Positions 2,135-14,287 of a stretch of 64,000 nucleotides of DNA are shown piece by piece. The stretch's first letter is position 1. Every line of letters starts with the position of its first letter. Below the pieces are notes generated by a model. The model made no database searches. It was given only the letters and a program-made list of their open reading frames with translations, and was not told where the DNA came from. Position numbers and translations under genes: made by a program. Source of the stretch: Methylopila sp. 73B (GTDB taxonomy: Bacteria; Pseudomonadota; Alphaproteobacteria; Rhizobiales; Methylopilaceae); contig NZ_JAFV01000001.1 in NCBI RefSeq assembly GCF_000526315.1, forward strand, positions 1,426,001 to 1,490,000, written 5' to 3'.

Positions 2135-3313
2135 TCAGCGCGCCAGCGCCCGGGTCGCCCGATCGAGGCCGTCGAGGCTGAGCGGGTACATGCGCCCTTC
2201 GACCGCGTCCCGGACGATGTCGATGGACTCGGTCCACGACCAGCTCCGCTCCGGGAGGGGGTTGACCCAGGCGAGCTTCGGGAAGCGATCGACGAACCGT
2301 CGCAGCCAGACCCGGCCCGCCTCCTTGTTCATGTGTTCGACCGCGCCGCCGGGCGACAGCAGCTCGTAGGGGCTCATCGACGCGTCGCCGACGATCACCA
2401 CCCGGCACTCCGGCGGATAGCCGCGCAGCAGGTCGAGCGTCGGCGTGAGCTCGGCGCGCCGGCGACGGTTGTCGCGCCACACGTGCTCGTAGACGCAGTT
2501 GTGGAAATAGAAGTGGTCGAGCCGCTTGAACTCGGACCGCGCGGCGGAAAACAGCTCCTCACAGGCGCGCACGTGCCCGTCCATGGAGCCGCCGACGTCA
2601 AGCAGCAGCAGAAGCTGCACCGCGTTGCGCCGCTCCGGGCGCAGCTTCACGTCGAGAAAACCCTGGCGCGCGGTCGCGCCCACGGTGCCGTCGAGATCGA
2701 ACTCCTCCGCCGCGCCGGCGCGGGCGAAGCGCCGCATGCGCCGCAGGGCCACCTTGATCGCCCGCGTGCCGATCTCGACCTCGCCGTCGAGATCGCGGAA
2801 CTCCCGCTTGTCCCAGACCTTCACCGCCTTGAAGTTGCGGTTGCCCTCCTGCCCGATCCGGATCCCTTCCGGATTGTAGCCGTAGGCGCCGAAGGGCGAC
2901 GCGCCCCCCGTGCCCACCCACTTGTTGCCGCCCTCGTGCCGCGCTTTCTGCTCCGCGAGACGCTGCCGCAGAGTCTCGAGCAGCTTGTCGAGCCCGCCGA
3001 GCGCCTCGATCGCCGCCTTCTCTTCATCCGACAGCAGGCGTTCGAAGCGTTTCAGCAACCAGTCCGGCGGTATGTCCGTTCCAGCGAGGGCCTCCGCCAG
3101 GCTCTCGGCCCCGGCGAAGATCTGGGCGAAAACGCGGTCGAATCGGTCGAAGTGCCGTTCGTCCTTGACGAGGCAGGCGCGGGCCAGCGCATGGAGCCCG
3201 TCGGCGTCGGTCGGACGCAGTCCGCGGTCCAGCGCCTCCAGGAACGCGAGGTGCTCACGTAGGGACACGGGCACGCCGGCGCTGCGCAGCGCCTCGAAAA
3301 ACCTCAGGAACAT
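2135..3313 (-). CDS. CoxE-like VWA-domain protein
   Basis: 392-residue soluble protein of the CoxE/VWA family. The N-terminal half is a helical domain with a conserved block around the motif GTGGASPFGAYGYNPEG; the C-terminal third is a von Willebrand A domain whose metal site reads LLLDVGGSMDGHV (about residues 236-248), i.e. DxGxS instead of the canonical DxSxS, as I recall is usual in this subfamily. CoxE-like proteins typically act with a MoxR-type AAA+ ATPase in maturation or remodelling of a client; here no MoxR gene is adjacent on either side, so its ATPase must lie outside the window or be absent. It is convergent with the ferredoxin reductase and divergent from the giant gene. Start is the ATG at 3313. 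Confidence 0.85.
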   Translation of the reverse strand: MFLRFFEALRSAGVPVSLREHLAFLEALDRGLRPTDADGLHALARACLVKDERHFDRFDRVFAQIFAGAESLAEALAGTDIPPDWLLKRFERLLSDEEKAAIEALGGLDKLLETLRQRLAEQKARHEGGNKWVGTGGASPFGAYGYNPEGIRIGQEGNRNFKAVKVWDKREFRDLDGEVEIGTRAIKVALRRMRRFARAGAAEEFDLDGTVGATARQGFLDVKLRPERRNAVQLLLLLDVGGSMDGHVRACEELFSAARSEFKRLDHFYFHNCVYEHVWRDNRRRRAELTPTLDLLRGYPPECRVVIVGDASMSPYELLSPGGAVEHMNKEAGRVWLRRFVDRFPKLAWVNPLPERSWSWTESIDIVRDAVEGRMYPLSLDGLDRATRALAR

Positions 3314-3607
3314 GACGCGGGGCCGGCCGAATCGTTTGAGATGGTGAACAACCCGTTAACGACGTTTGCCAACGGATGGATTCCGCGGTTCTCTAGATGC
3401 GGGATCATCGGTACCATCAGAAGCGTGGAGACGCATGCCTGACGACGCCGCGGCGTTTTCGTGGCGATGGCGTGACGGCTCCAAACGGCGAGACGGGCCG
3501 TGTCTGTGTGGGGACACGATCCGGCAGAGGACGTTGTCAGTCTCGCGTGAGGCCGGCGGGTCCGAAGCGACCGATGTGTGCAGTGTACGGACGCGAGGCT
3601 TCAGACG
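3314..3607. other. divergent intergenic region, 294 bp
   Basis: Divergent promoter region between the CoxE-like gene (minus) and the giant repeat protein (plus). It holds an A+T-rich patch around 3340-3365 with a GTTAAC hexamer (3354-3359) and no convincing small ORF: the short open frames here have no family features. A GAGG sequence about 9 nt before the ATG at 3608 supports that start for the giant gene. I could not define -35/-10 boxes. Confidence 0.5.
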
Positions 3608-6600
3608 ATGGCGAATCCCAATCCTGCCAAGGATCCCGCGGAAGCGGCCCTGTCCGCCATCGAGGAGGCGCTGAATCTCGTCGCTCCCGGCGCCAAGGCG
3701 GTCGTCGCCCCGCGCAAGGCGGCGCCTGAGCCCACGGTGACGGAGCCCATGGTCGAGCCGCAGCTCCAGGCCGCGGCGCCCGAACGCCGCGTCGCGCCGA
3801 CGCCCGACCGGTCCGGCCGCCGCGCGCCCGCGAACGACGACGCCCGCTCCTTCGCGCACATCCTCTACGCCTTGCAGCGCAAGCCCTCGAACGGCCCCTT
3901 CGTGCTGGCGACCGCCGCCGCCGTGGCCTGGGCCGCGCTCGGCGCGCTCTACGTCTTTGGCGTCGTCGGCCTGGGCCAGGGCGGCGTCGATCTCGCCGAC
4001 CGCGCGATCCAGGCGCAGCTGGCCGCCGCCTTCGTCGGCACCTTCGCGCCGATCGTGTTCTTCTTCATGCTCGCGATGATGGCCTGGCGCTCGCAGGAGA
4101 TGCGCCTCGTCGCCCGTTCGATGACCGAGGTCGCGCTCCGCCTTGCGGAGCCCGAGACCTCGTCGACCGATTCCGTCACCTCGCTCGGCCAGGCCGTGCG
4201 CCGCGAGGTCGCGGCGATGGGCGACGGCATCGAGCGCGCCGTGAACCGCGCGGGCGATCTGGAGTCGCTGGTGCGGGGCGAGGTCTCCTCGCTCGAGCGC
4301 TCGTTCCACGACAACGAACTGCGGGTCCGCAACCTCATCGCCGAGCTGCAGAGCGAGCGCGAAGCCATCGACGGCAACGCCGAGCGCCTGCGCGAGACCA
4401 TCGCCGGGGCGCACGAGCTGCTCGCCCGCGACCTCAACGCCGCCGCCACGCTGCTGACCGCGAACATCGCCGAGTCAGGCGCGCGGGTGACGGAACATCT
4501 CGACGCCAAGAGCATGGAGCTGTCCGCGGCGATCGCCGAGGCCGGCGAGGCCATGCTCGTCGCCGTCGGCGGACGCGGCGCGGAGCTGATCGAGCGTCTC
4601 TCCAGCACCAGCGACGCCGTGACCCGCAGCCTCGACGAGACCGGCTCGCGGCTCGCCGAGACCGTCGCCGCCCGCGCGGACGCGGCGCGAGACGCCATGA
4701 CGGACAGCGGCGAGAGCCTCGCCCGCTCGCTCGAAGAGCGCACCGCGCTGCTCACCGACCGGCTGGCGGCGACCGGTCTCGACCTCGACGAGCGGCTCGC
4801 GCGCACCAGCGAACAGATCGTCGGCGTGCTCGACGGCCGCGGCAACCAGATGGCGAACGAGCTGGAGCGCTCCGGCGCGGCGGTCCTCGACCGCATCTCG
4901 GAGCGCTTCGGCGAGCTGCACGTCGCGCTCGACCGCACCAGCGCCGATCTCGGCGAAGGCTTCGCCGCCCGCGCGGGCGAGCTGACCGAAGCCCTCGCCT
5001 CCACCGCCGCCTCCGTCACGGAGGCGTTCGGCGAACGCGGAGCGCGCGTCACCGAGCAGCTCGAGACCGTGGCCACGCGCCTGTCCGACGACTTCGCCGC
5101 CCGCGGTGACCGCGCCGCGGAGACGCTGCAGCGCGCCGGCGACGACGTGACCGGCGGCTTCACCGAGCGCGCCGACCTCATCCTGCGCAGCCTCTCGGAG
5201 CGCGCCGAGGCGGTGTCCGAGGCGCTCCGCGAAGTGGGCGAGGACTTCCAGGGCGTGCTCGCGGTCCGCGCGGCCGAAGTCACCGAGGCCGTCAAGACGG
5301 CCGGCGACGGCGTCGTGCTCGACCTGTCGCTGCGCGGCTCCGAAATCACCGGCAAGCTCGACGAGACCGGCGGACGCCTTGCGGAGAGCATCTCGCTGAA
5401 GAGCGGCGAGCTGGCGGACCGTCTGTCCGAGGCGAGCGCCCGGATGCACGAGGCGATCGTCGTCCACGGCGGCGAGCTCGAGCGCCGGTTCGGCGAGAAC
5501 GGCGAGCGCATCGCCGCCCTGCTCGAGGAGCGCGGCGACAACGTCGCGACCCGCATCGCGGCGGCCAGCGACCGCGTCCACGAGGCCGTCGTCGGCCGTT
5601 CGGGCGAGGTCGAGCGCGAATTCGACGCGGCCGGCGCCCGCATCGTCGCGGCCATCGAGACCCGCGCCCTCGAAGTGCGCGAGAGCATCGAGGCCACGAC
5701 CGTCACGATCGCCGACGTGCTGTCGGAGCGCGGCGGCATCCTCGTCACCCAGCTGGGCGACACCGCCGAGCGCATCCACGACGTCGTCGTCGTCCGCGGC
5801 TCCGACCTCGAAAGCCGCCTAGCGGCGACCGGGGACCACCTCGGCGAGACCATCGAGGCCCGCGCCGTCGCGGCGCAGGCGGCGTTCGACGCGGCGGCCG
5901 GACGGATCTCCTCCGGCGTCGAGGAGCGCCTGCGCGCCTTCGAGGAGCGGCTTTCGACCACCGGCGGCTCCGTCGCCGAGATCATCGCGGACCGCGGCGG
6001 CGCCCTCGCCTCCACTCTCGAGGAGACCGCCGAGCGCATCCACGAGACCATCGTTTCGCGCGGCGGCGAGCTGGAGACCCGCCTGACGGCGGCGACCGGC
6101 GCCCTCGGCCGCACGATCGACAGCCGCGCCACCGCCGCGGAGGAGGCCTTCGCGGCCGCCTCCGACCGGGCGACCCAGGGCGTCGACGAACGGCTGTCGG
6201 CCTTCGAGGAGCGCCTTGCGGCTGCCGGCGGCGCGGCGGGCGAGATCATCGCCGACCGCGGCGGCGCCCTCGCCTCCTCGATAGAGGAGACGGCGGCGCG
6301 CATCCACGAGAGCATCGCAGGCCGGGGCGGCGAGCTTGAGGGCCGCCTCGTCGCGGTCGTCGGCTCGCTCGGCGAAGCCATCGACGGCCGCGCGGCGGCG
6401 GTCGAGGAGATCTTCGCGTCGGCGTCCGAACGCGCCACCTCCGGCCTCGACGAACGCCTTGCGGCGTTCGAGCAGCGCCTCACGGGCGCGGGCGGCGTGA
6501 TCGCCGAAGTGATCTCCGAGCGCGGCGGCGACCTTGCGACCCGCCTCGACGACACCGCCGAGCGGATCGACTCGCTGCTCGCGGGCCGCGGCGGCGCGCT

Positions 6601-9600
6601 CGGCGACCGGCTCGAAGCCGGCGCGGAGACCCTACGCTTGGCGCTCGAAGAGCGTGCGGCGGCGATCGAAGCCAAGTTCGGCGCGGCGGCGGAACGCGTC
6701 GCGACCGGCTCGGACGAGCGCCTGCGCGCCTTCGACGAGCAGATCACCAGCACGGGCGGCGTGATCGCCGAAATCATCGCGGAGCGCGGCGGGGCCCTGG
6801 TCTCCTCGCTCGGCGAAACCGCCGAGCGGATCCACGACGTCGTCGTGCTGCGCGGCGACGAACTCGAGCGCCGGCTTGCGGCGAGCGGCGACGGCCTCGG
6901 CGCCAAGATCGACGAGCGGGCGGCCGCGGCGGAAGCCGCGTTCGACGCCGCCACCGGCCGCATCTCCACCACGGTCGAGGACCGCCTGCGCGCCTTCGAG
7001 GAGCGCCTCGCCACCACAGGCGTCTCGGTGGCGGACGTCATCGCCGAACGCGGCGGCCAGCTGACCATGACGATCGGCGACACCGCCGAGCGGATCCACG
7101 ACGCCATCGTCAACCGCGGCGCCGATCTCCAGACCCGCCTCGCCTCCGCGGAGATCCGCTTCGTCGAGACGATCGACGCCCGGGCTCTCGCGGCCGAAGG
7201 CGCCTTCGACGCCGCCGGCCAGCGCCTCGGAGCGAACTTCGAGGAGCGGCTCGGCGCCTTCGAGCAGCGCTTCGACGGCGCGGGCTCCGCGCTCGGCGAG
7301 CGGCTCGCGGGTGAAGTCGCCCGCGCGGAGCGCCTGCTCGGCGAGGCCGCGAGCCTCGTCGCGCTGCGCCTGCGCGACGGCGCCCAGAACGCCGGCGCGA
7401 CGCTGCAGGCGTCCGTCGAAGGCTTCGGCGTCGCCCTCGACGGGCGCGTCGCCGAGGTCAACAGCCAGCTGGAGCGCGTCAGCGACGAGATCGGCGCGGC
7501 CATCGCGAGCCGCGGCGAGACCCTGAGCGAGGCGCTTGCGGCGACCGCGCGCCAGCTCGCCGACGAGATCGCGACCCGCGGCGGCGCCGTGAACGAGGCC
7601 TTCGCGGCCCAGCTCGCCGCGCTCGACAAAACGCTCGACGAGCGTGGCCCGGCGCTCGCCGACCGCATCGGCGCGGCGAGCGAAAGCTTCGCCGAAAGCG
7701 TCGCGTCGCACGTGGGCGACGTGGAGCGCGTGCTGCGCGAGGACGGCGGACGCCTGGCCGAATCGATCGGCGAGACCGCCGGCCGTCTCGAGACCTCCAT
7801 GGCTGACCGGCTGGCCTCGTTCGACGGCAAGATGTCCGAGTTCGACGGCGCCATCGCCGACCGGCTCGCGGGCTTCGACGACCGCCTTTCGGCGATCGAC
7901 CTCGCCTCTCGAAGCCACCTCGGCGCGGTCGACGGCCGCATCGAGCGGCTGGACGAGACCATCGGCGCACGCGTCGGGCAGTTCGACGAGAAGATCTCGA
8001 CCTTCGACCAGCTGTTCGCCGGTCGGATCACCGCGCTCGACGGCCAGATCCTGCGGCTCGACGAGACCATCGCGCTGCGCGTCGGATCGATCGACGAGAA
8101 GATCGGCGCCATCGACGAGACGGTGGGCGCCCAGGTCGGACGCATCGACGACCAGGTCGCGCAGCTCGACCGCGTGATCGGCGAGCGCCTCGGCGCCTTT
8201 GACGCGCGGGTGACGACGCTCGACGGCTCGCTCGGCGAACGCCTCGAAAGCTTCGCGGGCCGCGTCGCCGCGCTGGACGACTCGCTCAGCGAGCGCGTCG
8301 CGTCCTTCGACGACAAGGCGACCGGCATCGGCGAGGCGCTGACGAAGAGCCTCGAGACCTTCGACAACCGCGCCAACGTGCTCCACCGCGCTGTTGCCTC
8401 CCGCATCAATGTCTTCGACGCCAAGGCGACGGAGTTCGAGAAGGCCATCGCCGCCCATGCGGACGGCGTAAACACGCGCACGACCGAGCTCGAGGGCGTT
8501 CTGGCCCAGCGCTTCGGCGCCTTCGACGAGCAGCTAGGGGGGCGCATCGGCGACCTCGCGCTGTCGCTCGAGAGGCGCATCAGCCGCATCGACGACGGCC
8601 TCGAGGCGCGCACCCGCGCGCTGAACGAGACGCTGGCCGCCCGCACGCTGGAGCTCGCGCGCACGCTGGGCGACGGCTCGACCGGGGTCGCGGCCGCCCT
8701 CGCCGACCGCGCCGCCGAGTTCGCCGCGACGCTCAGCGAGCGCACCGACGAGCTGATCGCCTCCTTCGACGGCAAGGCCGAGACGGTCGGCGCGACGCTC
8801 GGCGCACGCGCGCTCGAAGTGGCGTCCGAGCTCGAGGGCCGCATCGGCCGCTTCGAGTCCGTGGTCTCCGCCGGGCTCGACGCTGTCAGCGCCAATCTCG
8901 GCGCCCGCGGCGACGCGCTCACCTCCGAGCTCGCGCTCAAGACCGACGCCTTGGCGCGCGCGATCGCCGAGGCGACCGAACGCGCCGAGGGCGACATGTC
9001 GCGCCTCTCGGGCGAGGTGACGGAAGCGCTGGTCGCGCGGATCGGCGAGCTGACGGTGACGCTCGAGCGGCAGGGCTATGGCCTCGTCGAGCGCTTCGGC
9101 GCCCAGAGCGCGGCCGTGACGCGCGAGATCGCAGCCGCCGGCGACGCGGTCTCGACCCAGATCGAGAGCCGTTCGGCGACCCTGATCGACGGACTGGCCT
9201 CGCGCAGCGACACGCTGAAGGAAACCCTCGAGGCGCTGAACGGCGACCTTGTGCGCACCTTCGAGACCCGCGGCGCCGAGACGGTGGAAAGCCTGAACTC
9301 GGTCGCGGACCGCCTGCGGGTGGTGTCGCATCGCCTGTCGGAGACCATGGGCCTCGAGACCTCCAAGGCGGTCGAGCACCTCGACGGCTCGAGCCGCAAG
9401 CTCCAGGAGGCCGTCGTCGAGGCGACCTCGACGCTTGCGACCACCGTCGCCCGGGAGAGCAAGCGCGCCGTCGCCGACCTGTCCCGGACCCAGACCGCCC
9501 TCACCGGCGAGATGGCGGACGTCCTGACCAAGCTCGCGGACTCGAACGCCGGCCTGCAGACGCTGCTCGACAACGCCGGGCAGAAGCTCGGCGCGGTCGA

Positions 9601-11005
9601 GAGCGAGCTTTCGGGCCGCGTCACGGCCTTCGAGGAGATCATGGCCGACATCGCGGAGACGACGACCCGCACCGGCGAGAAGGTCGGCGCCCAAGTCACC
9701 TCGCTCCGCGACGTTTCCTCCGGCGTGCTTCAGCGCGTCACAGAGGTGTCGAAGAAGCTCGACGACCAGACCCAGGCGATCGCGGCCGTCACGACGACGC
9801 TCGACGGCGCGCAGGGCCGCCTGGCCGGCGCGCTCGAGGAGCGCCGCTCCGCGCTCGAGACGCTGTCCGGGGCTCTCGTCGCCAAGGCGGACGAGCTCGG
9901 CGGCGTGATCGAGGGCTTCACCGTCTCGATCGACGGCGCGCTGTCGAAGTCGGAGCAGCGGGCGCAGAAGGTCGCCGAGAGCCTCGCGCAGCAGGTCGGC
10001 GCCACCGCCCAGCAGATCGCCGGGGAGTTCGAGAAGGTCCGCCAGACCACCGAGGCCGAGCGCGAGAAGACCGCGACGGCGCTCAAGGCCGCGAACGAGG
10101 AGGCGGCGCGCGACATCGCCAAGACCCTCGGCGCGGCGACCGGGCGCTTCGCGGAGATCACCCGCGAGCTGCGCGGCATGACCTCCTCCATCCAGGCCGA
10201 ACTCGACACGACCCGCGAGCAACTGCGTCGCGGCGTCCTGGAGATGCCCAAGGAGGCGGAGGAGAACGCGGCCGAGCTGCGCCGCGTGATGGCGGAGCAG
10301 ATCCGGGCCCTGACCGCGCTCGGCGAAATCGCCGCGCGCCAGGGCGCGTCGTTCGACGTGGCCGAGCCCGCCCAGGCCCGTGTGGCGGCGGCGAAGCCGG
10401 CTTCGACGCCTCCGCGACCGGCCGCTCCCGCGCCGGTTCGCGCGCCCGCCCCCGCCGCTTCGGCCCCCCGTCCCGCGGCGCCGAAGCCAGCCGCGCCCGC
10501 GACCGCCCGCGGCGCCGCCCCCGCGGAGGACAACGGCAGCTGGATTTCCGGCCTGCTCGCCCGCGCCTCGCGCGACGACGCCCCGGCGGGCGCTCCTTCG
10601 CCGACGGCGGTGCGCAAGCCCGCGCCGGCGGCCCCGCAGCAGCGCTCGCCGCTGCACGCGATCGAGTCCCTCGACAGCCTCTCGGTCGACATCGCCCGCA
10701 TGATCGACCATCAGGCCGTGACCGACCTGTGGGACCGCTACCGCCGCGGCGAGCGCAACGTCTTCACGCGCCGGCTCTACACGCTGCAGGGCCAGCAGAC
10801 CTTCGAGGAGATCCGGCGCAAGTACGGCGCGGAGCCCGAGTTCCGGGCGACGGTCGAGCGCTACATCTCCGAGTTCGAGCGGCTGCTCGAAGAGGTCGGC
10901 GAAGACGATCGCGACAACATGCTGACCAACACCTATCTCACCTCCGAGACGGGCAAGGTCTACACGATGCTCGCCCACGCGGCCGGAAAGTTCGATCCGA
11001 GCTGA
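3608..11005 (+). CDS. giant growth-pole-ring (GPR/RgsE-like) helical repeat protein
   Basis: 2465-residue protein, very probably the counterpart of Agrobacterium GPR and Sinorhizobium RgsE, giant apolipoprotein-like proteins that build a ring at the growing pole and are needed for polar growth and rod shape. Layout: Ala/Pro-rich N-terminus (1-90); two membrane segments at about 97-122 and 138-160; a helical repeat region (about 190-2240) made of 22-residue units, with an 18-residue-period block in the middle; an Ala/Pro-rich linker (about 2256-2345); and a C-terminal globular domain rich in aromatic and charged residues (VTDLWDRYRRGERNVFTRRL onward), likely conserved. The open frame runs 10 codons further upstream to 3578, but the ATG at 3608 has a GAGG ribosome site. 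The gene ends at a strong terminator and seems monocistronic. Family call is by architecture, not alignment. Confidence 0.85.
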   Translation: MANPNPAKDPAEAALSAIEEALNLVAPGAKAVVAPRKAAPEPTVTEPMVEPQLQAAAPERRVAPTPDRSGRRAPANDDARSFAHILYALQRKPSNGPFVLATAAAVAWAALGALYVFGVVGLGQGGVDLADRAIQAQLAAAFVGTFAPIVFFFMLAMMAWRSQEMRLVARSMTEVALRLAEPETSSTDSVTSLGQAVRREVAAMGDGIERAVNRAGDLESLVRGEVSSLERSFHDNELRVRNLIAELQSEREAIDGNAERLRETIAGAHELLARDLNAAATLLTANIAESGARVTEHLDAKSMELSAAIAEAGEAMLVAVGGRGAELIERLSSTSDAVTRSLDETGSRLAETVAARADAARDAMTDSGESLARSLEERTALLTDRLAATGLDLDERLARTSEQIVGVLDGRGNQMANELERSGAAVLDRISERFGELHVALDRTSADLGEGFAARAGELTEALASTAASVTEAFGERGARVTEQLETVATRLSDDFAARGDRAAETLQRAGDDVTGGFTERADLILRSLSERAEAVSEALREVGEDFQGVLAVRAAEVTEAVKTAGDGVVLDLSLRGSEITGKLDETGGRLAESISLKSGELADRLSEASARMHEAIVVHGGELERRFGENGERIAALLEERGDNVATRIAAASDRVHEAVVGRSGEVEREFDAAGARIVAAIETRALEVRESIEATTVTIADVLSERGGILVTQLGDTAERIHDVVVVRGSDLESRLAATGDHLGETIEARAVAAQAAFDAAAGRISSGVEERLRAFEERLSTTGGSVAEIIADRGGALASTLEETAERIHETIVSRGGELETRLTAATGALGRTIDSRATAAEEAFAAASDRATQGVDERLSAFEERLAAAGGAAGEIIADRGGALASSIEETAARIHESIAGRGGELEGRLVAVVGSLGEAIDGRAAAVEEIFASASERATSGLDERLAAFEQRLTGAGGVIAEVISERGGDLATRLDDTAERIDSLLAGRGGALGDRLEAGAETLRLALEERAAAIEAKFGAAAERVATGSDERLRAFDEQITSTGGVIAEIIAERGGALVSSLGETAERIHDVVVLRGDELERRLAASGDGLGAKIDERAAAAEAAFDAATGRISTTVEDRLRAFEERLATTGVSVADVIAERGGQLTMTIGDTAERIHDAIVNRGADLQTRLASAEIRFVETIDARALAAEGAFDAAGQRLGANFEERLGAFEQRFDGAGSALGERLAGEVARAERLLGEAASLVALRLRDGAQNAGATLQASVEGFGVALDGRVAEVNSQLERVSDEIGAAIASRGETLSEALAATARQLADEIATRGGAVNEAFAAQLAALDKTLDERGPALADRIGAASESFAESVASHVGDVERVLREDGGRLAESIGETAGRLETSMADRLASFDGKMSEFDGAIADRLAGFDDRLSAIDLASRSHLGAVDGRIERLDETIGARVGQFDEKISTFDQLFAGRITALDGQILRLDETIALRVGSIDEKIGAIDETVGAQVGRIDDQVAQLDRVIGERLGAFDARVTTLDGSLGERLESFAGRVAALDDSLSERVASFDDKATGIGEALTKSLETFDNRANVLHRAVASRINVFDAKATEFEKAIAAHADGVNTRTTELEGVLAQRFGAFDEQLGGRIGDLALSLERRISRIDDGLEARTRALNETLAARTLELARTLGDGSTGVAAALADRAAEFAATLSERTDELIASFDGKAETVGATLGARALEVASELEGRIGRFESVVSAGLDAVSANLGARGDALTSELALKTDALARAIAEATERAEGDMSRLSGEVTEALVARIGELTVTLERQGYGLVERFGAQSAAVTREIAAAGDAVSTQIESRSATLIDGLASRSDTLKETLEALNGDLVRTFETRGAETVESLNSVADRLRVVSHRLSETMGLETSKAVEHLDGSSRKLQEAVVEATSTLATTVARESKRAVADLSRTQTALTGEMADVLTKLADSNAGLQTLLDNAGQKLGAVESELSGRVTAFEEIMADIAETTTRTGEKVGAQVTSLRDVSSGVLQRVTEVSKKLDDQTQAIAAVTTTLDGAQGRLAGALEERRSALETLSGALVAKADELGGVIEGFTVSIDGALSKSEQRAQKVAESLAQQVGATAQQIAGEFEKVRQTTEAEREKTATALKAANEEAARDIAKTLGAATGRFAEITRELRGMTSSIQAELDTTREQLRRGVLEMPKEAEENAAELRRVMAEQIRALTALGEIAARQGASFDVAEPAQARVAAAKPASTPPRPAAPAPVRAPAPAASAPRPAAPKPAAPATARGAAPAEDNGSWISGLLARASRDDAPAGAPSPTAVRKPAPAAPQQRSPLHAIESLDSLSVDIARMIDHQAVTDLWDRYRRGERNVFTRRLYTLQGQQTFEEIRRKYGAEPEFRATVERYISEFERLLEEVGEDDRDNMLTNTYLTSETGKVYTMLAHAAGKFDPS
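5729..7312 (+). repeat. six in-register 264-bp (88-codon) internal repeats
   Basis: Within the giant gene the motif R-G-G following an acidic residue recurs with its CGC codon at 5729, 5993, 6257, 6521, 6785 and 7049, exactly 264 bp apart each time. Each 88-residue unit is four 22-residue sub-repeats with distinguishable sequence: one starting DRGGALAS, one SRGGELE, one starting SRA with an AAEEAF core, and one ERLxAFEERL. 88 is eight times 11, the helical period of apolipoprotein-like amphipathic helices. The copies are diverged in sequence but have no indels, so length is under tight constraint. Confidence 0.9.
7802..8503 (+). repeat. thirteen 54-bp (18-codon) internal repeats
   Basis: In the giant gene the period changes from 22 to 18 residues. 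Successive units read like ADRLASFDGKMSEFDGAI, ADRLAGFDDRLSAIDLAS, RSHLGAVDGRIERLDETI and so on, with an F/I-D pair near position 7-8 and a hydrophobic-D near 14-15; thirteen units fit from 7802 without a gap, weakening in the last one. Eighteen residues is five turns of an ideal alpha helix, so each unit would present the same face with no superhelical drift. Confidence 0.88.
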
Positions 11006-12020: not shown

Positions 12021-12710
12021 TCAGAGGCGCTGGCCGGTCCACGCGACGAGGCCGCGCAGCACGTCGGCGAGCGCGGCGTTCAGCGCGCGCGTGGCGGTCG
12101 GACCGTCGACGGCGCCGGGAAGCGGCTGGCGGGCCTGGAACACCTCGCCGGCGACGATCCTGCCGGTCTTGTCGCTGACGATCTTCGCGGTGAGCTCCAC
12201 CACGGCCTGTCCCTGCCCCGCGCGGATCTCGAAGGCGCGGAGCTCGGTGACGAGTTGGTAGTCGACGGCGAGCCGATCGCCGGGGCGACCGACGCTCTTC
12301 AGCCGGTTGGCGTTCTCGTAGGCCTCGATGATCTTGGCCTGCACGAGCTTCGGCAGGCGGTCGGACCACTGCGAATCCGGAAGGTAGGTCACCTGCCCCG
12401 CGTCCGGCTTCACGACGATCCGCTGGCCGTCGATGACGGCGACGGCGACCGGTTCGCCCACCACGAGGTTGCCCTTCTGCGAGCCGCCGCGCGGAAGGTC
12501 GGTCGGGGCCGTGAGGTCGTAGGTCGCCGGCGGCTTGCCGGCGAGCAGGCTGGAGCAGCCGGCGAGCGCGACGCCCGCGAGCAGGAGGGCCGTGGCGCTC
12601 AAGGTCTTGGCGCTCAAGGTCTTGGCGCGGATTGAACGGGTACGCGGTGCGGTCACGGCTCTCTCCGAGCTCGTCGGGATACGGGGCGATGCGGCGGATC
12701 GGCTGGTCAT
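12021..12710 (-). CDS. ABC-type transport auxiliary lipoprotein (Mla/MCE operon)
   Basis: 229-residue lipoprotein of the ABC_trans_aux/PqiC-like family. A long basic N-terminus leads to a hydrophobic stretch and lipobox LAGC (Cys at about residue 52), after which the mature part follows. The body contains the family-typical PRGGSQKG and LPDSQWSDRLPKLVQAKI segments. Its start codon overlaps the stop of the upstream MlaD-like gene by 4 bp, so it is translationally coupled and last in the mlaEFD operon. Such lipoproteins are thought to sit in the outer or inner membrane and assist MCE-protein lipid trafficking. The unusually long pre-lipobox region may mean that translation really starts further in. 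Confidence 0.88.
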   Translation of the reverse strand: MTSRSAASPRIPTSSERAVTAPRTRSIRAKTLSAKTLSATALLLAGVALAGCSSLLAGKPPATYDLTAPTDLPRGGSQKGNLVVGEPVAVAVIDGQRIVVKPDAGQVTYLPDSQWSDRLPKLVQAKIIEAYENANRLKSVGRPGDRLAVDYQLVTELRAFEIRAGQGQAVVELTAKIVSDKTGRIVAGEVFQARQPLPGAVDGPTATRALNAALADVLRGLVAWTGQRL

Positions 12711-14287
12711 CGGCGGTTGTACTCGCGCACGCCGCCCGTGTCGCCGAACAGGAACTGGCGCGGGTTGCTCTGGAGGCCGCGCAGCACGCGGTCGAGTTCG
12801 TTCAGCGTGCGGCGGCCGTCGGCGGCGAAGCCCTGAAGGTCGCGGACGCCGGAGGTCGAGAGCTTGTTCACGCTCGCGGTGATGTCGGCGGTGCGGCCGT
12901 CGAGGCGCTGCGCGAGTTCGCGGATCGCCTGGCTTGTCTTCTGGAAGTCGGCGATGGCCCCTTGCGTCTGGTCGCTGCCGATCACGCGCTGCGCGTCGGT
13001 GATGACCGCGTCCAGCTTGTCGGCGGTGCCCGTGAGCCGCCCCGAGATCTGCCGGGCGTCGGCGACGATCTGGTCGACGTCGTTCGTGCTGCGGCCGAGA
13101 GCGGCCGCGAAGCTGTTCACGTTGTCGATGGTGGAGCGCACCTTCTCGCTGTCGACGGCCGAGATCACCCGGTCGACGTTGGCGATCGTGCGGCTGATCG
13201 TCGGGCCGTCGATCGAGGTCGCAAGGCTGGTGAAGCCGTCGACCGCGCGATTGATCTTCTCGGGATCGATCGCCGCGATGGCGCGGTCCGCGTTGCGGGC
13301 GGCGTTCTCCACCGAGGTCACCGCGTTCGAGACCTTCTGCGGATCGACCGAGTTCAGCAGCGCGGCGAAGCGATCGACCGCGCCCGAAACCTTCTGCGGA
13401 TCGACGCCGCGCACGATCTCCTGGACGCCGGCCAGCACGGAATCGATGCGGCCGCCGGAGGCTTTCAGCTGGGTGGCCAGCGCCGCGACGTCCTTGAGGG
13501 CCGTCTCGATCTGGGGCGCGCCGTTCTTCAGCGACTCCGAGAAGGCGACGACGTTGGACATGGTCTTGTCGACCTTCGCCACGTCCACCGCGCGCACGAG
13601 GTTCTGAACGTCGGTCACGAGCGGCACGAGATTGTCGGCGAGGGTGCCGATCTGGCGCGCGGCGATGCCGGTGTTCTGCATGAAGCTCTTGAGGTCGTCA
13701 GAGTTCGCGGCGAGCGCCGCCGTGAACTGCTCAACGTTGAGCAGCGAGCGCTCCACCGAGCCGCGGCTGTTCGCCACCAGCCCCTGGACGTCGTTGAAGG
13801 TCAGCTGCGCTTTCTCCAGCACGCTGCGCGCGCCTTCGAGGATGTCCTGGAAGGCGGAGGGCTCGGCCACCAGCACGGGCGCGTTGTTCGGGTCGCCCGA
13901 CTCCGTCGTCACCTTCGGCAGCGGCGCGGCGGTCGAGGAGCCGCCGGCGAGCTGGATGACGGAGCCGCCGGTGAGGCCGGTGATCTCGAGCCGCGCCTTG
14001 GTGTCCGAGCGCACGGGCGTGTTGGTGAAGACCTCGATCCGCGCGACCACCTTCGCGGGGTCGAGGGGATCGAAGTTCAGATTCGTGACGTCGCCGACGC
14101 GGATGCCGTTGAACAGCACGCCGGAGCCGGGCGTCAGCCCGGACACCGCGCCCTGGAACTGCACGCGGTAGATCGCCCGCTCGCGCTGCTGGCCGGCGGA
14201 GGTGAACCACCAGACGAAGGCGAAGGCCGCCGCCACGACGAGGAGCGTGAAGGCGCCGACGAGGGCGTGATTGGCGCGGGTTTCCAT
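12707..14287 (-). CDS. mlaD: MlaD-family MCE lipid-binding protein
   Basis: 526 residues. One membrane anchor near the N-terminus (HALVGAFTLLVVAAAFAFVWWF, about 7-28) is followed by a single MCE domain (about 36-115; GAVSGLTPGSGVLFNGIRVGDV is the recognisable core) and a long, mostly helical periplasmic tail with repeated DRxIAAIDPEKI/VDRFAALLNSVDPQKV-like units. E. coli MlaD is about 183 residues; the long helical tail is the larger alphaproteobacterial form and could form a tunnel or bridge across the periplasm. It lies 21 bp downstream of the ATPase gene and overlaps the lipoprotein gene by 4 bp. Role: phospholipid transport between outer and inner membranes. Confidence 0.9.
   Translation of the reverse strand: METRANHALVGAFTLLVVAAAFAFVWWFTSAGQQRERAIYRVQFQGAVSGLTPGSGVLFNGIRVGDVTNLNFDPLDPAKVVARIEVFTNTPVRSDTKARLEITGLTGGSVIQLAGGSSTAAPLPKVTTESGDPNNAPVLVAEPSAFQDILEGARSVLEKAQLTFNDVQGLVANSRGSVERSLLNVEQFTAALAANSDDLKSFMQNTGIAARQIGTLADNLVPLVTDVQNLVRAVDVAKVDKTMSNVVAFSESLKNGAPQIETALKDVAALATQLKASGGRIDSVLAGVQEIVRGVDPQKVSGAVDRFAALLNSVDPQKVSNAVTSVENAARNADRAIAAIDPEKINRAVDGFTSLATSIDGPTISRTIANVDRVISAVDSEKVRSTIDNVNSFAAALGRSTNDVDQIVADARQISGRLTGTADKLDAVITDAQRVIGSDQTQGAIADFQKTSQAIRELAQRLDGRTADITASVNKLSTSGVRDLQGFAADGRRTLNELDRVLRGLQSNPRQFLFGDTGGVREYNRR

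Follow-up and report, generated by a model that had tools for sequence, protein, structure and literature searches.

An exact 18-residue repeat block within the hendecad rod of a GPR/RgsE homologue from Methylopila sp. 73B

For Agrobacterium, the protein GPR has been described as forming a ring at the growth pole and as having a role in polar growth, for which it is reported to be essential (PMC8262873). For Sinorhizobium, RgsE has been called 'large and repeat-containing', and it was described as the sole dispensable Rgs protein, although normal growth and cell shape depend on it (PMC7327166). An apolipoprotein-like folding of GPR was argued for on the ground that the GPR foci are 50 nm, so that the protein must fold (PMC8262873). 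The words 'repeat', 'periodic', 'supercoil' and 'parallel' do not occur in the main text of that paper, and a literature search, judged by titles and abstract openings, yielded no report on repeat periods in GPR or RgsE.

The window analysed here is a stretch of 64,000 nucleotides from Methylopila sp. 73B. It contains the gene for a GPR/RgsE homologue of 2465 amino acids (3608..11005, plus strand, ORF from the ATG at 3608), for which an alternative GTG start at 3578 would give 2475 amino acids. Two hydrophobic N-terminal stretches (aa ~96-124 and ~136-161; 3893..4090; 19-residue Kyte-Doolittle mean >1.6) are, by their sequence, likely to form a membrane anchor. A rod follows that as a whole comprises about 2000 residues. 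It begins with a hendecad (11/22-residue) region (aa 250-1390; 4355..7777; Fourier peak 3.666, power 148), in which Tandem Repeats Finder identified five copies of a 264-nt super-repeat (88 aa = 4 x 22; 5729..7057). The block of 13 exact 18-residue units (aa 1399-1632; 7802..8503), supported by lag identity, unit profile, Fourier analysis and AlphaFold2, is followed by a 14th unit that forms the transition to hendecads again (aa 1633-1650; 8504..8557; profile run and unit table) and by a hendecad stretch of 11-residue repeats (aa 1651-1879; 8558..9244), the first 50 residues of which form a conserved marker with blastp matches in outgroups. The C-terminal rod (aa 1880-2250; 9245..10357) has a Fourier period of ~3.57-3.60 and is connected by a Pro/Ala-rich linker (aa ~2252-2347; 10361..10648) to a conserved C-terminal domain (aa 2348-2465; 10649..11002) recognised in genome searches and by alignment. 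All these features lie on the plus strand.

A search found the C-terminal domain in 59 of 61 genomes, counting the one from which the window comes, and from this distribution the domain was taken as the marker of the GPR/RgsE family. PF01442 matches the protein with an E value of 8.2e-81. Together, the C-terminal domain, the predicted N-terminal membrane anchor and the long PF01442-like helical rod support, at the sequence level, the assignment of the 2465-aa protein to the GPR family; by analogy with Agrobacterium and Sinorhizobium, it probably organises growth at one cell end. An assignment as a ZorA tail (NF033914) was rejected, with a score of 39.3 against the curated cut-off of 190 bits. 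Antisense to gpr, a 1682-aa open frame (3949-8997, minus strand) was observed, which is probably a by-product of the codon use at high G+C.

Codon 1399, counted from the ATG at 3608, corresponds in frame to window base 7802. A preliminary description of this DNA had reported that from this codon on, units of exactly 18 residues repeat 13 times. This was borne out: lag 18 ranks first over the 13 units (z 12.9), ahead of 36 (12.2) and 54 (8.4), while in the flanks the leading lags are 22 and 44 on the upstream side and 11 and 33 on the downstream side. The possibility that no peak at 18 would emerge, which the same description had raised against itself, is thereby removed. Over 14 units the lag-18 identity is 0.303, compared to a maximum of 0.154 in 20,000 shuffles, and to a mean of 0.138 and a maximum of 0.222 in 5000 shuffles that exchanged hydrophobic and other residues only within their class. 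The 14th unit still fits the 18-residue profile. Counted by eye over the 13 units, position 7 is hydrophobic in 13 and F or I in 10, position 8 is D in 11 (an F/I-D pair at 7-8 in 9), position 14 is hydrophobic in 13 and position 15 is D in 9. These counts agree with the proposed motifs of F/I-D near positions 7-8 and hydrophobic-D near 14-15. In the DNA of the block, Tandem Repeats Finder identified no 54-nt array and only a 21-nt pair at 8090-8131; a recent tandem origin at the DNA level was thus not seen.

The Fourier peak of the hydrophobic residues ILMVFWY lies at 3.664-3.666 before the block (3.666 for aa 250-1390), at 3.598 for aa 1399-1650, at 3.666 for aa 1640-1880 and again at 3.598 for aa 1880-2250. 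The claim that one protein combines two helical geometries, with a switch to 18/5, therefore holds, as 3.598 is found between flanks of 3.666. The handedness had to be corrected: the 22-residue period had been described as a slight left-handed twist, but in two coiled-coil papers the undistorted helix is given 3.63 residues per turn, and 11/3 = 3.667 lies above this value and is slightly right-handed (PMC4786415, PMC9858780). Compared to a helix of 3.63, 18/5 is slightly left-handed; the description of 18 residues as ideal, straight turns is valid only if the helix has 3.60 residues per turn. Measured against a 3.63 helix, the drift of the hydrophobic stripe changes direction on entering the block and changes back after it, as follows from 11/3 being slightly right-handed and 18/5 slightly left-handed. 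Membrane-lining segments had also been suggested. For a HeliQuest-type scale, the cut-off for lipid binding is D 1.34. None of 1569 18-residue windows exceeded this HeliQuest-type threshold, and in the block D was >1.34 in 0 of 234; the net charge is -17 for the block and -87 for the 22-mer region, Trp and Tyr are absent, and the suggestion was not supported.

In a single-chain AlphaFold2 model of aa 1355-1700, based on a gapped alignment, helices were predicted for residues 2-118 and 127-345 of 346 (pLDDT 77.5, pTM 0.23), with a low-confidence break at aa 1473-1480 that adjoins a gapped stretch of the alignment. A second run, on aa 1399-1650 and with only the last 10-14 units of each relative aligned, predicted a single helix for residues 2-251 of 252 (pLDDT 90.8, pTM 0.30); as this alignment was chosen after the break in the first run, the unbroken helix is no independent test. 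Both models place the block in helix, which disposes of the disordered segment considered in the preliminary description. The only Pro within aa 232-2060 is found at 1348, outside the block. A hydrophobic period of 3.60 within a continuous helix is a trait of 18/5 coiled coils, and here the period is 3.598 within one predicted helix. A PDB sequence search with the block gave no match at E<=0.1, and PF01442 was not among the three families matched by the block alone at E<=1e-3. At the rise of 0.15 nm per helical residue, the 252 residues correspond to ~38 nm. At the same rise, 1,700 helical residues would span ~255 nm, for which 600 nm is stated in the Conclusions of PMC8262873.

In the blocks of the genus, the core positions of each 18-mer are 4, 7, 11, 14 and 18, with a spacing of 3-4-3-4-4, so that the unit consists of one hendecad and one heptad. 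On a 100-degree wheel the core lies within +/-40 degrees, giving a stripe ~80 degrees wide. In these genus blocks, 72% of the units have a basic residue at position 3 and 70% at position 10; an acidic residue is present at position 8 in 74% and at position 15 in 67%. The stripe is therefore bordered by basic residues on one edge and by acidic ones on the other, at i to i+5. Opposite charges at i to i+5 are the g-to-e' rule of parallel, in-register coiled-coil chains. This trait was identified in the block of the window (18 (+,-) pairs, z 6.1) and in four genus blocks (the window, L033, L034 and L046; 66 pairs, z 10.7), but neither in the 22-mer region (z -0.3) nor in the stretch following the block (z -1.2). 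Any fixed repeat produces several non-random spacings, of which i to i+5 is here the largest; for (-,+) pairs, z is 8.5 at i to i+1 and 5.0 at i to i+8. Among 72 non-independent units, basic residues at position 10 and acidic ones at position 15 are associated (p 0.0013); for positions 3 and 8 no association was found, and the odds ratio of 0.36 has the wrong direction (p 0.16).

The genus of the window, in the family Methylopilaceae, is represented by 13 genomes, including those of Hansschlegelia plantiphila, H. zhihuaiae and H. beijingensis. The block was identified in all 13 (E<=1.1e-47). A profile iterated without a fixed spacing came to include ordinary hendecads and was abandoned in favour of fixed-phase runs, by which 12-16 units were found in 11 of 11 intact proteins of the genus, the window included. 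The two others, G007 (gene in pieces, with a C-terminal frame of 324 aa) and G010 (separate contigs), also hold the block but do not figure among the intact proteins. An irregular 14+11 step breaks the 18-residue spacing in L035 and L044, so that their first three units have poor scores and ten good ones remain; the same step is present in L042. L036 and L046 contain a 29-residue periodicity besides the 18-residue block. For eight of ten other genus members, units with the same index in the window share an identity of 0.42-0.55, compared to 0.24-0.27 for units with a different index, and the same-index unit is the best match for 5-9 of 10 units in these eight relatives. With the order of the units kept between species and no 54-nt array in the DNA, the block looks, on the sequence evidence, old and maintained at the protein level.

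In a search across the order, as proposed earlier, at least 180 of 397 genomes match the block at E<=1e-3, with up to six candidates scored per genome; under the same limit, the best match listed outside the genus has an E value of 4.7e-11 and 29% identity. In 29 proteins examined from other genera, no fixed-phase run exceeded two units. Of 534 loci confirmed through their C-terminal similarity, the best 80, many of them named only to order, were compared: 12-13 units were counted in the three from Hansschlegelia and no more than two in the remaining 77, where for five of the 77 the region may be missing from frames of <800 aa. Three outgroups were aligned. In L047, regular 22-mers lie just upstream of the conserved marker and align with the block through repeated 4-residue gaps, which are not found in clean form in L037 and L062. 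The 18-mer could thus be a 22-mer less one helical turn, as judged from this one outgroup.

The proposed periodicity scan of homologues was extended to 150 distinct sequences of >=800 aa. This is an uneven sample: 41 and 80 sequences, less duplicates and frames of <800 aa, gave 112, and of 40 regions chosen among the stronger block matches outside the genus, 38 were entered (L207, without a C-terminal frame, and L210, with 306 aa only, were left out). A class was counted where at least two windows had the respective top lag at z 8. The protein-lag entries numbered 379 for 11n, 33 for 7+11n (18, 29, 40 and 51) and 7 for 14+11n (36, 47 and 58). Lag 5, seen at z 8 in L121 and L152, was left out of the series as probably of low complexity. 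At z 6, the lags 7 (two proteins) and 25 (three) fit the classes, and 16 and 26 (one protein each; 26 also at z 7) fall outside. Helix geometry by itself accounts for part of this regularity, as a repeat has to be close to a multiple of 3.6 residues in length. With one heptad per n hendecads, repeats of 18, 29, 40 and 51 residues give 3.60, 3.625, 3.636 and 3.643 residues per turn. For the actinobacterial proteins FilP and Scy, a 51-residue (4 x 11 + 7) pattern was reportedly given by Walshaw in 2010.

Blocks of 18 residues are rare outside the genus. The number of proteins with lag 18 rises from 12 at z 8 to 14 at z 6, and among 139 homologues outside the genus, 18 or 36 was flagged at z 8 in L155, with a long block, and in L156, which was rejected as an 18-residue block because it has only about three near-identical copies. 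L155 (Rhizobiales bacterium 65-79) contains an independent 18/36-residue block at aa ~577-1110, followed by a 29-residue block; the charge rule is missing from it (z -1.3). The preliminary statement that no 18-residue block had been reported in GPR-type proteins thus stands for the literature found, judged by titles and abstract openings, but not for the family itself, in which L155 has one. Blocks of 40 residues (7 + 33) were identified in L049, L054, L057, L205, L206 and L230. On a quick tree of the C-terminal domain (~125 residues), the 18-residue class (13 of 150) takes three changes, the 29-residue class (15) nine and the 40-residue class (6) two. At ~240-180 residues before the linker, the period is <3.58 in 80% of 294 strong windows of GPR homologues. 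Stretches below 3.63 are therefore not new to the family, as the C-terminal rod of the homologues is commonly already below this value. An exact tandem block of 18-mers in the middle of the rod is unusual.

Upstream of gpr, a gene with a VWA_CoxE match (PF05762) is located at 2138-3313 on the minus strand. Convergent to gpr, an MCE/MlaD lipid-transport gene (PF02470) and a gene for an ABC_trans_aux lipoprotein are found at 12024-14287 (minus strand). Among 120 gpr loci, which are not independent, an MCE protein was identified in 88 (tblastn E<=1e-10), downstream of and convergent to gpr in 84, at a median distance of 1176 nt from the C-terminal match over the 88 loci and within 3 kb in 79. Of the 120 loci, 11 that extend downstream by 6 kb or more lack it, and a further 21 end early. 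Through this conserved neighbourhood, lipid transport may be linked to growth at the pole; a literature search on it returned nothing relevant.

We read the block as a lineage-specific part of a coiled-coil rod of hendecads into which heptads are inserted at regular intervals; its oligomeric assembly and its function are inferred. In the genus, a rod built of hendecads (11/3) changes in its middle to units of one hendecad and one heptad, which lowers the period from 3.667 to 3.60. Over ~38 nm, the shallow right-handed supercoil would thereby give way to a straight or shallow left-handed course. With R3 and R/K10 along one flank of the stripe and D8 and D15 along the opposite flank, g-to-e' salt bridges could form, which would lock neighbouring chains parallel and in register. 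From the period change and the salt bridges together, the block would be a stiff, register-locking zipper that offsets the twist of a ring scaffold. We assign a probability of about 0.55 to the reading that the block is such a stiff, register-locking and twist-offsetting part of a parallel homo-oligomeric coiled coil in the GPR/RgsE growth-pole scaffold, with the polar-growth role of the 2465-aa protein carried over from Agrobacterium and Sinorhizobium.

Neutral drift of the repeat length, in which any period near 3.6 keeps the rod helical and 18 has no special function, is possible but rather doubtful. The other GPR homologues with 22, 29, 40 or 51 residues instead, the nine changes of the 29-residue class and the irregular step inside the run of some genus members are what drift would produce. 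It is less easily reconciled with the fixed-phase runs throughout the intact proteins of the genus (fewer units scoring well in L035 and L044), with the unit-by-unit orthology and with a charge pattern confined to the block as compared to the 22-mer region and the stretch after it. Drift is compatible with a coiled-coil structure and excludes only a special role of the number 18. The monomeric single alpha-helix of the ER/K type, a spacer suggested by a long, charged helix without Pro, is hardly credible here: opposite charges at i to i+4, enriched in such helices, are depleted in the four genus blocks (z -4.3 and -3.0), and the hydrophobic stripe is continuous.

An apolipoprotein-like bundle, with the chain folding back on itself and the 18-mers antiparallel within one molecule, would agree with the PF01442 matches throughout the protein, with the broken helix of the first AlphaFold2 run and with the two GPR domains modelled on apolipoprotein A-IV (PMC8262873). 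However, PF01442 does not match the block alone, the second run predicts no turn, and antiparallel packing would, by its geometry, bring basic edges to face basic and acidic edges to face acidic ones. On these grounds such a bundle appears unlikely. The apolipoprotein-type match, the predicted N-terminal anchor and the adjoining MCE gene could also point to a lipid-facing amphipathic helix on the membrane of the growth pole. We consider this quite improbable, as the block is net negative, lacks Trp and Tyr, stays below the lipid-binding cut-off in every window and has a narrow stripe with opposite charges at its two edges.

For the parallel coiled coil, the clean switch of the period and the charge pattern provide a concrete and testable rod model with parallel, in-register pairing, in which a coiled-coil scaffold has its local twist set by the number of heptads. 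The block piece of 252 residues is short enough for experiments, and the family series of 18, 29, 40 and 51 offers material for comparison. It is conceivable, though we advance this only tentatively, that blocks with one heptad per set of hendecads represent an evolvable twist code for the pole-ring scaffold, adjusted lineage by lineage, with Hansschlegelia as the n = 1 extreme, counter-twisted and register-locking, which would compensate the right-handed hendecad rod.

The apolipoprotein A1/A4/E domain (PF01442) consists of 11/22-residue helical repeats; it matches the protein as a whole in 13 stretches, but not the 18-residue block alone at E<=1e-3. Coiled coils of the 18/5 type are already known, and they are described as consisting of heptads with a delocalised stutter and as having the same periodicity, 7+7+4 = 18 residues over five turns (PMC4786415). 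The block of the window differs from these in its 13 equal tandem units inside an 11/3 rod, as identified from the sequence. FilP and Scy from actinobacteria are described, like the protein here, as long hendecad coiled coils and as cell-division and polar-growth proteins (PMC9858780), but they belong to another family, with a DivIVA-like N terminus, and to another phylum. The closest resemblance is to GPR from Agrobacterium tumefaciens (Atu1348) and RgsE from Sinorhizobium meliloti (SMc00190), which are also ~2100 aa in length and membrane-anchored, with a PF01442-like rod (PMC8262873, PMC7327166). For GPR, a Pro-rich region at aa 1890-2000 is comparable to the Pro/Ala-rich linker of the window protein (PMC8262873). 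The likeness rests on the published descriptions, and the mid-rod block of exact 18-residue units, which goes unmentioned in the available parts of both papers, belongs to the window protein.
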